Shown here: in pieces, positions 9,048 to 16,814 of the stretch
Numbering within the stretch: the first letter of the stretch is position 1
How the letters are laid out: every line of letters starts with the position of its first letter
Source: Streptomyces macrolidinus
GTDB taxonomy: Bacteria; Actinomycetota; Actinomycetes; Streptomycetales; Streptomycetaceae
Direction: 5' to 3'
DNA length: 64,000 nt
NCBI RefSeq assembly: GCF_023887685.1
Contig: NZ_JAMWMR010000007.1
Location: 186,001 to 250,000, forward strand
Made by a program: the position numbers and the translations under genes
The notes under the pieces: generated by a model
Seen by the model: only the letters and a program-made list of their open reading frames with translations
What the model was told of the DNA's origin: nothing
Database searches by the model: none

Positions 9048-10241
<1,194 letters not shown>

Positions 10242-10265: not shown

Positions 10266-10551
10266 TCACTGACTGACCTCGAAGAGGCTCGTACGACTTC
10301 GGTCGTGCGGGCCTCTTCGCTGTTCCCGGACCGTCCGCACGGCCTTCATGGCCTCGTGCAGGACGGCAGCCAGCTCCTGTAGGGCCGCCGTGGCGGCGTC
10401 GGGGTCTTCGCTCCACGGCCTTGGCGAACGCCTCGTCCTTCGTCCGCCGCATCTCCGGCAGCCGTTCAGGGGTGACAGCGGCGAGGGCGGCCCGCAGGGC
10501 GTCCGGGGTCTGTTCGGGGCGGTGGATCAGCTTGTTTCCCCGCGCGTTCAT
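10266..10551 (-). pseudogene. Small conserved-looking protein, frameshifted
   Basis: The gene starts with ATG at 10551, overlapping the stop of the upstream gene (ATGA), and reads MNARGNKLIHRPEQ... through AFAKAVE. Near 10407-10413 the coding signal jumps frame. The second frame continues EDPDAATAALQELAAVLHEA and stops at 10266-10268. The unshifted frame instead becomes Arg-rich (RRPRRRHGG) and runs on to 10234. One extra base, or two missing, explains this. The tail of the restored frame crosses the str operon terminator. No function is recognised; a sequencing error is possible. Confidence 0.6.
10281..10318 (+). terminator. str operon terminator
   Basis: A 17-bp stem (10281-10297 with 10302-10318, two T-G wobbles) is capped by a stable TTCG loop. 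It ends the str operon and, read from the other strand, could also stop the minus-strand gene pair that runs towards it. Confidence 0.92.
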
Positions 10552-11444
10552 GGAGCACCCTCGGGAGTCGCCGAACGGCAGTCGCGGCAGGAGCCCGGCT
10601 CGGGGGCGCGGAAGGCTCGGTCGCAGGTGTCGCAGTTCTGGAGGGGGTGCGGTACGGGCGGCGGGGCGCGGAACGGGGGTGGGGGTGGTAGCTGGGCCGT
10701 GAGGCGGTGGGCCAGGAGAGCCGCTGGGCGGCGTACGCCCTCGGGTGGCAGCGCGGACGTCAGGGCATGGCGTACAGCGGCCGGTGGCACGTCGCGTTGC
10801 AGCCAGGCGGCTACGCCGGGCGCCAGATGGGCCGTGTCGCATGCGCTGAGCAGCAGGCGGGGGTCCTGGTGACGCAGGCCCGCGAGGAGGTCGGTGGCCG
10901 TCCGGAGGAGGGCGGGGGAGGGGTGCGCGGGTTGGGGGACCGGGGGGAGCGGGTGCTGCTTCTTCTTGGTCTTCTTGCGGGGTTCGTCCGGCTTCGCCGC
11001 CGGGCGCTCCTCGTGAACTGCCGGTCCGGGAGCGCGAGGGGCCTTCGGCTGGTTGCAGGAGATCGTGCGGGTGACGATGTTGCCGGTGGAGGTGCGTTCG
11101 CGGACGCGGCGCAGATAGCCGTGGGCCTCCAACTCCCGTAGCCCCGCGGCGATTCGGGTGCGGCCCTCCGGGAAGCGATTGGCTAGCGTCTTGATGTCCA
11201 CCGGGGCGTTGCTCGGCAGCGACTGGATGTGCACCGCCAGCGCGATCGCGACCAGTGACAGCTCCGCGTGCTGTGCCAGGTGATTGCCGATCACCGTGAA
11301 GCGGGTGGTGTGGCGGGTGTTGTCGTGCGTGACGCCATAGGCGCGGGGGCGGTTGCGTGTGCGTGAATTCGCCCGGGAGTGGGGCTCGTTCGTGGCAACG
11401 GCCCACTGCGTGTGCCGGGGCACGCTAGGGTTCTCAGTACCCAT
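10548..11444 (-). CDS. Winged-helix DNA-binding protein with C-terminal zinc-ribbon
   Basis: 298 aa. Residues ~35-135 look like a winged-helix domain (LSLVAIALAVHIQSLPSNAPVDIKTLANRFPEGRTRIAAGLRELEAHGYL is its core, given here as positions ~63-112). A Lys/Pro-rich linker with KKTKKKQ follows. The C-terminus has CDTCDRAFRAPEPGSCRDC, a Cys-x2-Cys pair repeated, as in a zinc ribbon. It is probably a DNA-binding regulator; the target is unknown. It is the first gene of a minus-strand pair with the frameshifted gene. The start ATG lacks a strong ribosome site. Confidence 0.7.
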   Translation of the reverse strand: MGTENPSVPRHTQWAVATNEPHSRANSRTRNRPRAYGVTHDNTRHTTRFTVIGNHLAQHAELSLVAIALAVHIQSLPSNAPVDIKTLANRFPEGRTRIAAGLRELEAHGYLRRVRERTSTGNIVTRTISCNQPKAPRAPGPAVHEERPAAKPDEPRKKTKKKQHPLPPVPQPAHPSPALLRTATDLLAGLRHQDPRLLLSACDTAHLAPGVAAWLQRDVPPAAVRHALTSALPPEGVRRPAALLAHRLTAQLPPPPPFRAPPPVPHPLQNCDTCDRAFRAPEPGSCRDCRSATPEGAP

Positions 11445-11649
11445 CGGGAAGGCTCTTCTCTTCCTCGGTGGCCAGGCCCTCGATCGGGATCGCTAGTCCC
11501 GGCCGGGGGCCGATGCATGTGTGCGGTTGGTCGCGCTGAGCGTAAGGCAGTTGGGGGACGTCAGATCCAGCCAAGCCGGTGTGGTTCACCCAAGCGAGTG
11601 AGTGTGAACCGCGGGCGGGTGGGGTGGGCTTGGCGGGGGTTCTTTCGCC

Positions 11650-12135
11650 TCATGTTCCTTGAGGGGAAGAGCCGTTGGCACCGGGGACCGGGGGAGCGGG
11701 TTCCGGTGGTGCGCAGCAGTGCAGTTCGGCCCAGACCGTCTTGCGCGGGAAGCGGTCCTCGCTCACACCCCAGCGGTCCGCCAGCGCGTCCACGAGGAGC
11801 AGGCCGCGTCCCGACTCGGCGTCTTCGGACGGGTGTTGCGGTTCCGGAAGCCGTTCGCTGCGTGTGTCGGTGACCTCGATACGGAGGGTGCTGTCGACCA
11901 CGTACAGCGTCAGACGGAAGTCCCGGCCCGGTACGCGCCCATGTGTCGCCGCGTTGGCCGCCAGCTCGGCCACGATGTGGATCGCGCACTCTGTGGGCAG
12001 ACCCCAACTCCGTAGCTGCGCCTCCGCGAGCAGCCGGGCGAGACGGGCTCCGCGCCGCGTGGAGGACAGCAGCGCGGTGAAGTGGGGGAGCTGCTGGGAC
12101 GGTTGGGGCGCGGTGGCGGCGATTTCCTGAGTCAC
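11650..12135 (-). CDS. HATPase-fold anti-sigma/regulatory kinase-like protein
   Basis: 161 aa with a GHKL ATPase fold of the RsbW/SpoIIAB type. The N box is ELAANAATHG, the G1-like region is DTRSERLP and the G2 region is GRGLLLVDALADRWG. Such proteins phosphorylate anti-anti-sigma factors or sequester sigma factors. A gene of this kind beside an XRE regulator and DUF397 genes is the known whiJ/bldB/abaA-type arrangement of streptomycetes. It is divergent from the XRE gene across 155 bp. GTG start; the ribosome site is weak. Confidence 0.8.
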   Translation of the reverse strand: MTQEIAATAPQPSQQLPHFTALLSSTRRGARLARLLAEAQLRSWGLPTECAIHIVAELAANAATHGRVPGRDFRLTLYVVDSTLRIEVTDTRSERLPEPQHPSEDAESGRGLLLVDALADRWGVSEDRFPRKTVWAELHCCAPPEPAPPVPGANGSSPQGT

Positions 12136-12252
12136 GGCACTCAGCGTGGCCGACGGCGCCTACCGTGAGGAGTGATCGGCCCGCTGCGTACGGTAACTGT
12201 CGGCGGCTTGTCCGGTGCCGTCCGGGCTGTCGGGCTCGTTCCTACGGGTAGG

Positions 12253-12290: not shown

Positions 12291-13166
12291 ATGTCGGTCG
12301 ACGGCGAAGCGGTACGGGTCGAGGTCGAGGAGGACGAGCAGGGATGGGAGGTGGACCCGGACGACGAGTGGGGCGTGGCCGTCATCGCCACGGTGGGGCG
12401 GCAGTTGAGGCTTCGCCGGGAGGCGGCGGGGATGCGCGCCGGTGAGTTCGGGCTGGCGATCGGGTACGGCGAGGACCTGGTCTACAAGGTCGAGGGCGGC
12501 AAGCGAATTCCCCGCAAGGAGTATCTGGACAGGTCCGACGCGGTGCTGGGAGCGAACGGGCTCATCTCGGCGACCTGGGAGGACGTGAAGAAGGTCCGGT
12601 ATCCGAAGAGCGTTCGGGCGCTGGGGAAGCTGGAGGCCAAGGCGGTCGAGCTCGGCATGTACGAGTGCAACACCATCGCCGGGCTGTTGCAGACGCCCGA
12701 GCATGCGCGAGCTCTGATCCAGGCCGCGCAGCCGCCGTACTCGCCGGACGACGTGGAGCGCATGGTGGCCGCTCGGCTGGCGCGGCAGTCCGTCTTTGAG
12801 CGCGACCCTGCGCCATCGATCCATTTCGTGCTGGAAGAGGCGCCGCTGCACCGGCAGATCGGGGGCACAATGGTGTGGCGGCAGCAGCTCGAACACCTAC
12901 TAGAAGTAGGGAAGTTGAACTGTGTCACGCTTCAGGTCATGCCGACCAACACCGATGCTCATCCAGGTCTGGACGGCAGGATCGAGCTGCTGAAGTTCCC
13001 GGATGGTACGGCGGTGGGGCGTTCCGATGGGCGGTTCAACGGACGGCCGGTCTCTGATCCGAAACAGCTCCGCATCCTGGAGTTGCGGTATGGGATCATC
13101 CGGGCGCAGGCCCTCCCTCCTCGGGAGTCGCTGGCCTTCATCGAGAGACTGCTGGGAGAGAAATGA
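12291..13166 (+). CDS. XRE-family regulator with DUF5753 domain (WhiJ-like)
   Basis: 291 aa. After an acidic N-terminal extension (EDEQGWEVDPDDEWG), residues ~33-80 form an XRE helix-turn-helix (GRQLRLRREAAGMRAGEFG). The rest matches the layout of DUF5753 (PPYSPDDVERMVAARLARQ; FVLEEAPLHRQIGG; LQVMPTNTDAHPGLDG). Such proteins pair with DUF397 small proteins and are linked to development and antibiotic control in Streptomyces. A GGAGGGG site precedes the ATG. The stop overlaps the first DUF397 gene (ATGA), so the five following genes are probably co-translated with it. Confidence 0.9.
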   Translation: MSVDGEAVRVEVEEDEQGWEVDPDDEWGVAVIATVGRQLRLRREAAGMRAGEFGLAIGYGEDLVYKVEGGKRIPRKEYLDRSDAVLGANGLISATWEDVKKVRYPKSVRALGKLEAKAVELGMYECNTIAGLLQTPEHARALIQAAQPPYSPDDVERMVAARLARQSVFERDPAPSIHFVLEEAPLHRQIGGTMVWRQQLEHLLEVGKLNCVTLQVMPTNTDAHPGLDGRIELLKFPDGTAVGRSDGRFNGRPVSDPKQLRILELRYGIIRAQALPPRESLAFIERLLGEK

Positions 13167-13360
13167 TGCGCAAGGCATCCACCGAACTGGCGTGGTTCAA
13201 GAGCAGCTACAGCGGTGGTACCGATGGTGAGTCCTGCGTCGAGGTCGCTACCGTGCCCGGAACTGTCCACGTCCGTGACTCGAAGGACCTTGAAGGCCCC
13301 CGCCTGGCGCTCGCGCCCTCTGCCTGGGCGGAGTTCGTGACGTACGCCTCCGGATCATGA
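13163..13360 (+). CDS. DUF397 small protein, copy 1
   Basis: 65 aa. It has the family pattern FKSSYSGG...CVEVA...VHVRDSKD...W..F. BldB belongs to the same broad group. It starts at the ATG overlapping the XRE stop (a second ATG follows at once) and ends in an ATGA overlap with copy 2. It is most like copy 3, consistent with a two-gene duplication. Probable partner of the XRE protein. Confidence 0.88.
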   Translation: MMRKASTELAWFKSSYSGGTDGESCVEVATVPGTVHVRDSKDLEGPRLALAPSAWAEFVTYASGS

Positions 13361-13566
13361 CCCGCGTGGCCTGTGCCGGGGACGCCTCCGAGCTGGCGTG
13401 GTTCAAGAGCAGCTACAGCAGCGGCAATGACGGCAACTCCTGCGTCGAGCTTGCCGTCACCCCCGGCACCGTCCACGTCCGTGACTCCAAGGACATCGCA
13501 GGCCCCCAGCTTGCCCTCACCCCTTCCACCTGGGTGGACTTCGTGACGTACGTATTGGAGGCGTGA
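13357..13566 (+). CDS. DUF397 small protein, copy 2
   Basis: 69 aa. The core LAWFKSSYSSGNDGNSCVEL and VHVRDSKDIAGPQLAL is intact, with a longer N-terminus MTRVACAGDASE that it shares almost exactly with copy 4. It overlaps copies 1 and 3 by 4 bp each. The C-terminus (TYVLEA) differs from the TYASGS end of the other three. Confidence 0.87.
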   Translation: MTRVACAGDASELAWFKSSYSSGNDGNSCVELAVTPGTVHVRDSKDIAGPQLALTPSTWVDFVTYVLEA

Positions 13567-13745
13567 TGTATCTGGCCTGGTTCAAGAGCAGTTACAGCGG
13601 CGGTACGAATGGTGAGTCCTGTGTCGAGGTCGCTGCCGTGCCCGGCACTGTCCACGTCCGTGACTCGAAGGACGTCGCAGGCCCCCAGTTGGCGCTCGCG
13701 CCCGCTGCCTGGGCGGAGTTCGTGACGTACGCCTCGGGATCATGA
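13563..13745 (+). CDS. DUF397 small protein, copy 3
   Basis: 60 aa, the shortest copy. It begins directly in the core (MMYLAWFKSSYS), having lost the N-terminal lead found in the others. DNA from here to 13745 closely matches copy 1 at an offset of 385 bp. It overlaps both neighbours by 4 bp. Confidence 0.85.
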   Translation: MMYLAWFKSSYSGGTNGESCVEVAAVPGTVHVRDSKDVAGPQLALAPAAWAEFVTYASGS

Positions 13746-13951
13746 CCCGCGTGGCCTGTGCCGGGGACGCCTCCGAGCTGGCGTGGTTCAAGAGCAGCTA
13801 CAGCGACGGCCCGGATGGTGAGTCCTGTGTCGAGGTCGCTACCGCACCCGGCACCGTCCACGTCCGTGACTCCAAGGACACCGAAGGCCCCCAACTGGCC
13901 CTCGCCCCCGCCACCTGGGCCCACTTCGTGACGTACGCCTCGGGCTCGTGA
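13742..13951 (+). CDS. DUF397 small protein, copy 4
   Basis: 69 aa. The N-terminus MTRVACAGDASELAWFKSSY is identical to copy 2, and the 5' DNA of the two genes is nearly identical. The stop overlaps the GTG start of the methyltransferase (GTGA), so the array and the enzyme are translationally coupled. Confidence 0.87.
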   Translation: MTRVACAGDASELAWFKSSYSDGPDGESCVEVATAPGTVHVRDSKDTEGPQLALAPATWAHFVTYASGS

Positions 13952-14682
13952 TCCGCAGGGCTGCCGTCGGGGACGCTGCCGAACTCGCTTGCCCCGACGG
14001 CAACTCCACAGACCTCTGGCACCACTACGGCCGAACCCGTGCCGAGGAAGACCGTGTCGTTCCCCGCACCTTCCGCTGGGTCTGGAGTCAAGACGGTGGC
14101 CCCGGGGCCGAGGTCCTGGGCGATCTGACGGGCAAGGTCGTCGGTGACCTCGGTGCCGGAGCTGCCAGGCATGCCGCCCATCTCGTCACCCGTCACGCCC
14201 CCGCCCGAGTCGACGCCGTCGATTCCTCTCCCGCGCAATGCGCCATGGCCAACGATCTGTTCGGACACCTCACCCCGCGCCTGCGCATCGTCCGATCCGA
14301 CGTCGTGAAGCACGTGCAGGCGGCGCCCGGCGCATACGACGTGCTGTACAGCGTCTTCGGCGCGGTCGACTTCACCGATCCGTACGAACTGCTCCCGGCC
14401 GTGGCCTCCGCACTTCGCCCTGGCGGCCGTCTGCTGTTCTCCACGCTCGCCCACTACCTGGGCGGCGCACCCGCGGAACTCGACGTCGTGCCCGCCGACA
14501 TCCCGGCGAGGACCTCGGACGGGGAGGTGACCACGATGCGCCGCTGGGTGCTCCAGGAACACGTCTGGAGGGAACTGCTGGATGCGTCCGGGTTCGCCCA
14601 GGTCGGCGTCGACGTGCTGCCGTCGGCAACCCGCGCTCCGCGCAGCGCCGACACGCTGTTCGTGACGGCCGTGCGGCAGTGA
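13948..14682 (+). CDS. SAM-dependent methyltransferase with DUF397-derived N-terminus
   Basis: 244 aa, class I methyltransferase. Motif I is VVGDLGAGAARHAAHL, the acidic strand end is VDAVDSSPAQ, and a post-motif LRPGGRLLFSTL is present. The substrate is unknown. The first residues, MIRRAAVGDAAELACPDGNS, line up with copy 4 of the array (MTRVACAGDASELA...PDGES) with the WFKSSYS part missing, and the DNA agrees. The enzyme therefore seems fused to a truncated fifth DUF397 copy. The GTG start overlaps the copy 4 stop. Confidence 0.85.
   Translation: MIRRAAVGDAAELACPDGNSTDLWHHYGRTRAEEDRVVPRTFRWVWSQDGGPGAEVLGDLTGKVVGDLGAGAARHAAHLVTRHAPARVDAVDSSPAQCAMANDLFGHLTPRLRIVRSDVVKHVQAAPGAYDVLYSVFGAVDFTDPYELLPAVASALRPGGRLLFSTLAHYLGGAPAELDVVPADIPARTSDGEVTTMRRWVLQEHVWRELLDASGFAQVGVDVLPSATRAPRSADTLFVTAVRQ

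Positions 14683-14713: not shown

Positions 14714-16814
<2,101 letters not shown>

Follow-up and report, generated by a model that had tools for sequence, protein, structure and literature searches.

A methyltransferase gene apparently fused in frame to a DUF397 gene start at the scr4677 locus of Streptomyces macrolidinus

In the window (the whole 64,000-nucleotide stretch of Streptomyces macrolidinus DNA that was analysed), a gene for a class I SAM-dependent methyltransferase (MT) stands at the end of a chain of overlapping regulatory genes and appears to begin with the 5' end of a DUF397 gene. The METHYLTRANSFERASE 5' end is well supported, by comparison of protein and DNA sequences, as a broken DUF397 remnant, and the novelty appears, at the same strength, to lie in a DUF397 start having captured, in frame, a methyltransferase of patchy distribution. 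We give a probability of roughly 0.68 to the reading that this is an scr4677/RsfA/XRE/DUF397 locus in which tandem amplification of DUF397 was accompanied by in-frame fusion of a further copy's start to the MT gene, coupling the enzyme to the regulator.

Identity of the locus

ORF calls and Pfam matches give a six-gene chain, in which an XRE-DUF5753 regulator gene is followed by four DUF397 genes and the MT gene, with an RsfA-like HATPase gene divergent (Table 1). All five joins in the chain are 4-bp overlaps (ATGA or GTGA); at the joins before DUF397 copies 1 and 3, starts at ATG 13166 and ATG 13566 would alternatively give 1-bp overlaps. The preliminary description of this DNA had the architecture right, and it was also borne out in calling this a coupled set of the whiJ/bldB/abaA type, the DUF5753 XRE, the four adjoining DUF397 genes and the divergent HATPase all being present. 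Judging by the overlaps, a single transcript from XRE through MT is likely.

Table 1. Coordinates of features at the locus (positions in the window)
Feature	Position	Strand	Evidence or remark
EF-Tu gene (tuf), upstream landmark	9048..10241	+	from translation
SCO4676-like HTH protein	10548..11444	-	weak HTH_36 match
scr4677 small RNA family (RF02673)	11445..11688	-	Rfam 164.1 bits, E 1.7e-44
RsfA/SCO4677-like HATPase (anti-sigma-type, abaA paralog)	11650..12135	-	HATPase_c_2 E 9e-11
Candidate HATPase/XRE divergent promoter/operator region	12125..12236	.	columns conserved across ortholog loci
XRE-DUF5753 regulator (WhiJ family, SCO4678-type)	12291..13166	+	HTH_31 + DUF5753 (E 7e-50)
DUF397 copy 1	13163..13360	+	PF04149 75.9 bits
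DUF397 copy 2	13357..13566	+	PF04149 72 bits
DUF397 copy 3	13563..13745	+	PF04149 78.9 bits; start may be ATG 13566
DUF397 copy 4	13742..13951	+	PF04149 74.5 bits
Putative fifth DUF397 5' end remnant (20 codons), serving as MT gene start	13948..14007	+	
Class I SAM-dependent methyltransferase body, from TDLWHHYG	14008..14682	+	Methyltransf_25 E 1.3e-10
NADP-glutamate dehydrogenase (gdhA), downstream landmark	14894..16378	+	NF006929 757 bits

The chain is the Streptomyces scr4677 locus. This identity is supported by the scr4677 RNA match at 164 bits, which is flanked by the HATPase and SCO4676-like HTH genes, and by the tuf and gdhA flanks, which match the order in S. coelicolor. In that species sco4676, rsfA (sco4677), sco4678 and sco4679 lie upstream of gdhA (sco4683) (PMC6637917, PMC3896431), in a stretch from sco4676 to gdhA that has been described as weakly syntenic and supercoiling-sensitive (PMC6637917), and deletion or overexpression of SCO4678/79 changes antibiotic production and differentiation (PMC10364602). 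The two loci share their gene order, the small RNA, the divergent RsfA-like gene and the position upstream of gdhA. They differ in that one DUF397 is listed in the S. coelicolor pair (SCO4679, PMC10364602) as against four and the putative remnant in the window, and in that SCO4680 (DNA-binding), a short chain dehydrogenase and a tautomerase, with no methyltransferase, come before gdhA in S. coelicolor (PMC6637917). The HATPase also has an RsbA-like match, under the cut-off at 29.6 bits.

For comparison, 60 ortholog loci were collected around the XRE genes most similar to that of the window, with identities to it of up to 87%; the set takes in paralogous places in a few genomes. DUF397 directly follows XRE in nearly all of these loci, the HATPase is found in most, SCO4676-like homologs adjoin the cassette in most, and scr4677-like DNA is present in 43. 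Matches to tuf also lie upstream in four of them (L089, L099, L109 and L131).

Tandem DUF397 genes

All four DUF397 genes match the Pfam family with E values from 5e-20 to 3e-22. Copies 3 and 4 are a tandem duplication of copies 1 and 2, to which they align at a fixed offset of 385 bp and are 87% identical; copy 4 also shares a run of 68 identical bp with the junction of copies 1 and 2. Copy 3 is without the usual leader and has instead a short one made at the duplication junction. The pN/pS ratio among the window copies is 0.28-0.57. The alignment of the copies at the 385-bp offset, together with the pN/pS of the copies and of the MT, argues that these open reading frames are not due to chance.

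Most of the 60 ortholog loci have one DUF397 gene and a few have two; L103 and L115 have three (for L103, two by a stricter motif) and L094 has four. Elsewhere in the S. macrolidinus genome, each of the remaining XRE-DUF397 cassettes has one or two. In two ortholog loci (L106 and L120), DUF397 genes apparently include an additional half-domain within the same ORF. A quick tree places the copies of L094 together, and likewise those of L103 and L115; window copies 1, 3 and 4 cluster, and copy 2 is placed elsewhere. This clustering argues that amplification occurred more than once.

Four is indeed an unusual number, as had been supposed at the outset, being matched in one of the 60 ortholog loci and by none of the other cassettes in the genome. 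Tandem DUF397 sets have already been reported, for actinobacteria generally (PMC7159879) and for S. clavuligerus (PMC8269248), so the four copies are best regarded as the extreme of a known kind. The S. clavuligerus XRE-(n)DUF397 sets resemble the window in having tandem DUF397 genes after one XRE, with five transcription unit clusters, and differ in that the accessible portion of that study describes no methyltransferase in them (PMC8269248).

The start of the methyltransferase gene

The full MT reading frame runs from 13948 to 14682 on the forward strand and matches Methyltransf_25/11 with E 1e-10 (Pfam). Its N-terminus reads MIRRAAVGDAAELA-C-PDGNS and is joined to the MT body at TDLWHHYG. 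The typical DUF397 start at the ortholog loci is MIRKxxAGDASELAWFKSSYSxGxDGNSCVE; free-standing relatives of the MT begin M-RVTTTTDLWHHYG or similar. On a matrix built from 55 DUF397 leaders, the MT start MIRRAAVGDAAELA scores 22.5 bits. Of 31,573 start codons scanned across the window and 40 MT loci, none but the MT start and window copies 2 and 4 comes within 6 bits of that score. At the DNA level, the alignment to DUF397 5' ends has the start in register, about 27 nt missing at the WFKSSYS core, and a second block, CCCCGACGGCAACTCC, after the gap. With the start codon held in register, the window MT scores 60 against DUF397 5' ends versus 19-34 for free-standing MT relatives; a shuffle-type similarity test in which the register was not fixed gave a weak result. 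Chance likeness of the MT start to DUF397 was considered as well, and was ruled out by the leader-matrix scan and the in-register DNA alignment.

The start codon, GTG 13948, overlaps the stop of DUF397 copy 4, and this 4-bp join seems to go back to one between two DUF397 genes. Between the upstream stop at 13867 and codon 100, GTG 13948 is the sole ATG, GTG or TTG in the MT frame. Since codon 100 falls past the SAM-binding motif, the MT must start at the DUF397-derived codon. No clear ribosome-binding site was seen by eye before GTG 13948, and a sigma-70 promoter scan, by which Streptomyces promoters are poorly covered, gave no match. The same DUF397-MT fusion was found neither in 393 Streptomyces genomes nor in a scan of the genome_contigs collection; with no second genome to show it, the evidence for the fusion comes from a single assembly, and its origin may be recent.

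Origin of the methyltransferase

Of 392 other Streptomyces genomes, 31 have relatives of the MT at E <= 1e-60, at scattered places that include a chromosome end (G064). These relatives belong to a patchy native set made up of a divergent TPR-XRE regulator of about 430 aa, a protein of about 135 aa, and the MT. In 36 of 54 MT loci (a few genomes being counted twice, as two collections were used), the MT adjoins the ~135-aa protein on the same strand, the divergent TPR-XRE regulator, or both. Loci of this set are L061-L080, L141-L160 and L173-L188. The TPR-XRE regulator has a weak NsdA-like match; the ~135-aa protein, which ends CGPCHPGNDSH, has no match in Pfam or NCBIfam. That the MT might be a solitary gene in other genomes had been entertained, and was rejected when a search of its neighbours showed the three-gene set. 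The window MT belongs to the MT family of this set, and differs from the members there in lacking its own start and in adjoining neither partner. The partner genes are absent at the window, and a search of the S. macrolidinus genome, weak as evidence of absence, did not find the ~135-aa protein.

The window MT is some 61-80% identical to its close relatives, the nearest being those of L141 (79%) and L148. A Foldseek comparison with solved SAM methyltransferases gave E ~6e-12, and the SAM-binding core is intact; sequence and fold searches of the PDB returned only generic small-molecule and RNA methyltransferases, and the substrate may be a small molecule. In the AlphaFold model, pLDDT is below 50 for residues 1-52, which span the DUF397-derived leader.

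The MT is found at none of the 60 ortholog loci. Three other MT loci, in three other species, do lie at scr4677 (L068, L073 and L155), where about 0.1 would be expected by an estimate that assumes one scr4677 per 8-Mb genome. Linkage of the enzyme in homologous loci, on which the preliminary description had staked its case, thus failed in the 60 orthologs and held in the three other species, once with the MT on the same strand. In that one instance (L068, G210) the order is HTH-HATPase-XRE-DUF397-135-aa protein-MT, an arrangement that could plausibly represent the state before fusion. At two further loci (L141 and L173), the MT is convergent with an XRE-DUF397-HATPase cassette 150-215 bp away.

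A proposed model for the fused locus

The favoured history would have the MT come from the patchy TPR-XRE/~135-aa/MT set, which has reached the scr4677 locus more than once. A deletion or recombination would then have fused a DUF397 5' end onto the MT, close to the native N-terminus of the enzyme, and removed the enzyme's own start. In the resulting operon, translation of the MT would be coupled to that of DUF397 copy 4, at whose end it begins, so that enzyme output would follow the developmental regulator.

The regulatory part of the model draws on other Streptomyces loci. Four TGTCCGG-type direct repeats lie at about 12197-12233, within the HATPase-XRE intergenic region. The blocks conserved across orthologs between 12125 and 12236 include CACTCAGCGTGGC, TACCGTGA and the TGTCCGG repeats, all of them candidate operator or promoter elements. 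WhiJ9 of S. venezuelae binds a set of three direct repeats; it activates the divergent gene and appears to repress itself (PMC10294661). The iosA-whiJ9-bldB9 locus is like the window in having an XRE gene with DUF397 downstream, a divergent target gene and intergenic direct repeats; it differs in having one DUF397, a sporulation inhibitor, no methyltransferase, and the repeat CGXXCTCAAC rather than TGTCCGG (PMC10294661). By analogy, 12125-12236 may be the XRE operator, and XRE may bind the repeats there and so control the RsfA-like gene on one side and its own operon on the other. BldB proteins hetero-oligomerise (PMC10294661), and most pairs in S. clavuligerus show more output of DUF397 than of XRE (PMC8269248). 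The DUF397 proteins of the window could similarly be made in excess over XRE and serve as its multimeric partners. Promoters that lie upstream of DUF397, within XRE genes, have been reported (PMC10294661, PMC8269248), so expression may not track XRE strictly.

Other methyltransferases beside XRE-DUF397 genes

METHYLTRANSFERASES beside XRE-DUF397 is not new as a layout. The addition of a methyltransferase had been put forward as an arrangement not known to be described, a claim that does not hold as worded. Two further HATPase/XRE-DUF397 cassettes in the S. macrolidinus genome are followed by a PF04672 methyltransferase (L189 and L190). For the XRE of one of these two (G000:C50:100083-100997), 21 of 30 close orthologs, its own locus included (L224-L253), have a PF04672 methyltransferase on the same strand within 1.5 kb, a lower bound because the loci are short. 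In addition, a graspetide study found two groups that co-occur with DUF397-DUF5753 pairs, one of them almost always with a PIMT methyltransferase (PMC13097080). For the XRE-DUF397-PF04672 layout itself, no published description was found in a literature with little coverage of subscription journals. The PF04672 cassette resembles the window in having a methyltransferase on the same strand after XRE-DUF397 and, in this genome's copy, a divergent HATPase; it differs in that its methyltransferase is of an unrelated family and unfused, with an intergenic gap of about 100 bp in this genome, and in having one DUF397. At another place in the genome (L201, G000:C1:418500-425500), a DUF397 pair and an XRE face a convergent gene that looks PIMT-like by eye, possibly within a RiPP cluster.

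Alternative explanations

The most serious competitor, which is possible and to which we give distinctly less than even odds, holds that the MT is a passive passenger, fused by accidental deletion, with no functional tie to XRE or DUF397 and due to be lost. It draws on the presence of the fusion in one genome only, on the failure to detect partner genes of the native set, and on the end branch of the window MT, which is longer than that of its sister (0.2 versus 0.083). Set against these points, the MT frame is open over 244 codons, 59 of the 60 columns conserved in at least 95% of the family are kept, and both the 4-bp overlap and the frame are preserved. The pN/pS between the window MT and its relatives is about 0.4, like that between two free-standing relatives, a value in which selection before and after the fusion is not separable. 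An unlikely account is the one offered in the preliminary description, that four different DUF397 partners diversify the XRE regulator, with the MT as an evolved effector of the unit. The rarity of four copies, the overlap of all the genes and the unrelated methyltransferase family that follows XRE-DUF397 in another conserved cassette would suit it; yet the window copies are duplicates of each other (copies 3 and 4 of 1 and 2), those of other species were amplified separately, tandem sets are on record, and the MT family is usually found with other partners, so that the idea of four different partners is not supported. We are just as doubtful of a broader proposal, that XRE-DUF397 cassettes repeatedly recruit methyltransferases as a metabolic output or as modifiers of what the XRE-DUF397 complex senses, be it a ligand or a protein, with the PF04672 genes and the window fusion as separate captures.

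Two further explanations carry very little weight. XRE-DUF397 was once proposed to be a type II toxin-antitoxin pair (PMC2701414, PMC7159879), and the locus could be cast in those terms, with DUF397 as toxin, XRE as antitoxin and the MT as an extension; this is highly improbable, given that 14 S. coelicolor DUF397 proteins, SCO4679 included, were non-toxic on overexpression (PMC10364602). Slighter still is the chance that near-identical repeats misled the assembly and gave a false DUF397-MT junction or a false number of copies. Stretches of up to 68 identical bases are shared between copies, and the draft consists of 137 contigs, but 13% of positions differ between the duplicated units, the contig extends over 285 kb, and the MT start has been replaced by a DUF397-like sequence with substitutions of its own, which would not arise from a mis-join.

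Conclusions

The fused locus bears on two questions, what DUF397 proteins do and which targets most regulators of the WhiJ type have. An enzyme that can be translated only by way of a DUF397 gene's start would be a natural readout of DUF397 output. Together, the conserved XRE-DUF397-PF04672 cassette and the independent capture of the MT provide a testable link between these regulators and methylation. More generally, the locus suggests that a patchily distributed gene can come under the control of a developmental regulator if it acquires the start of a small gene that has been duplicated in tandem.
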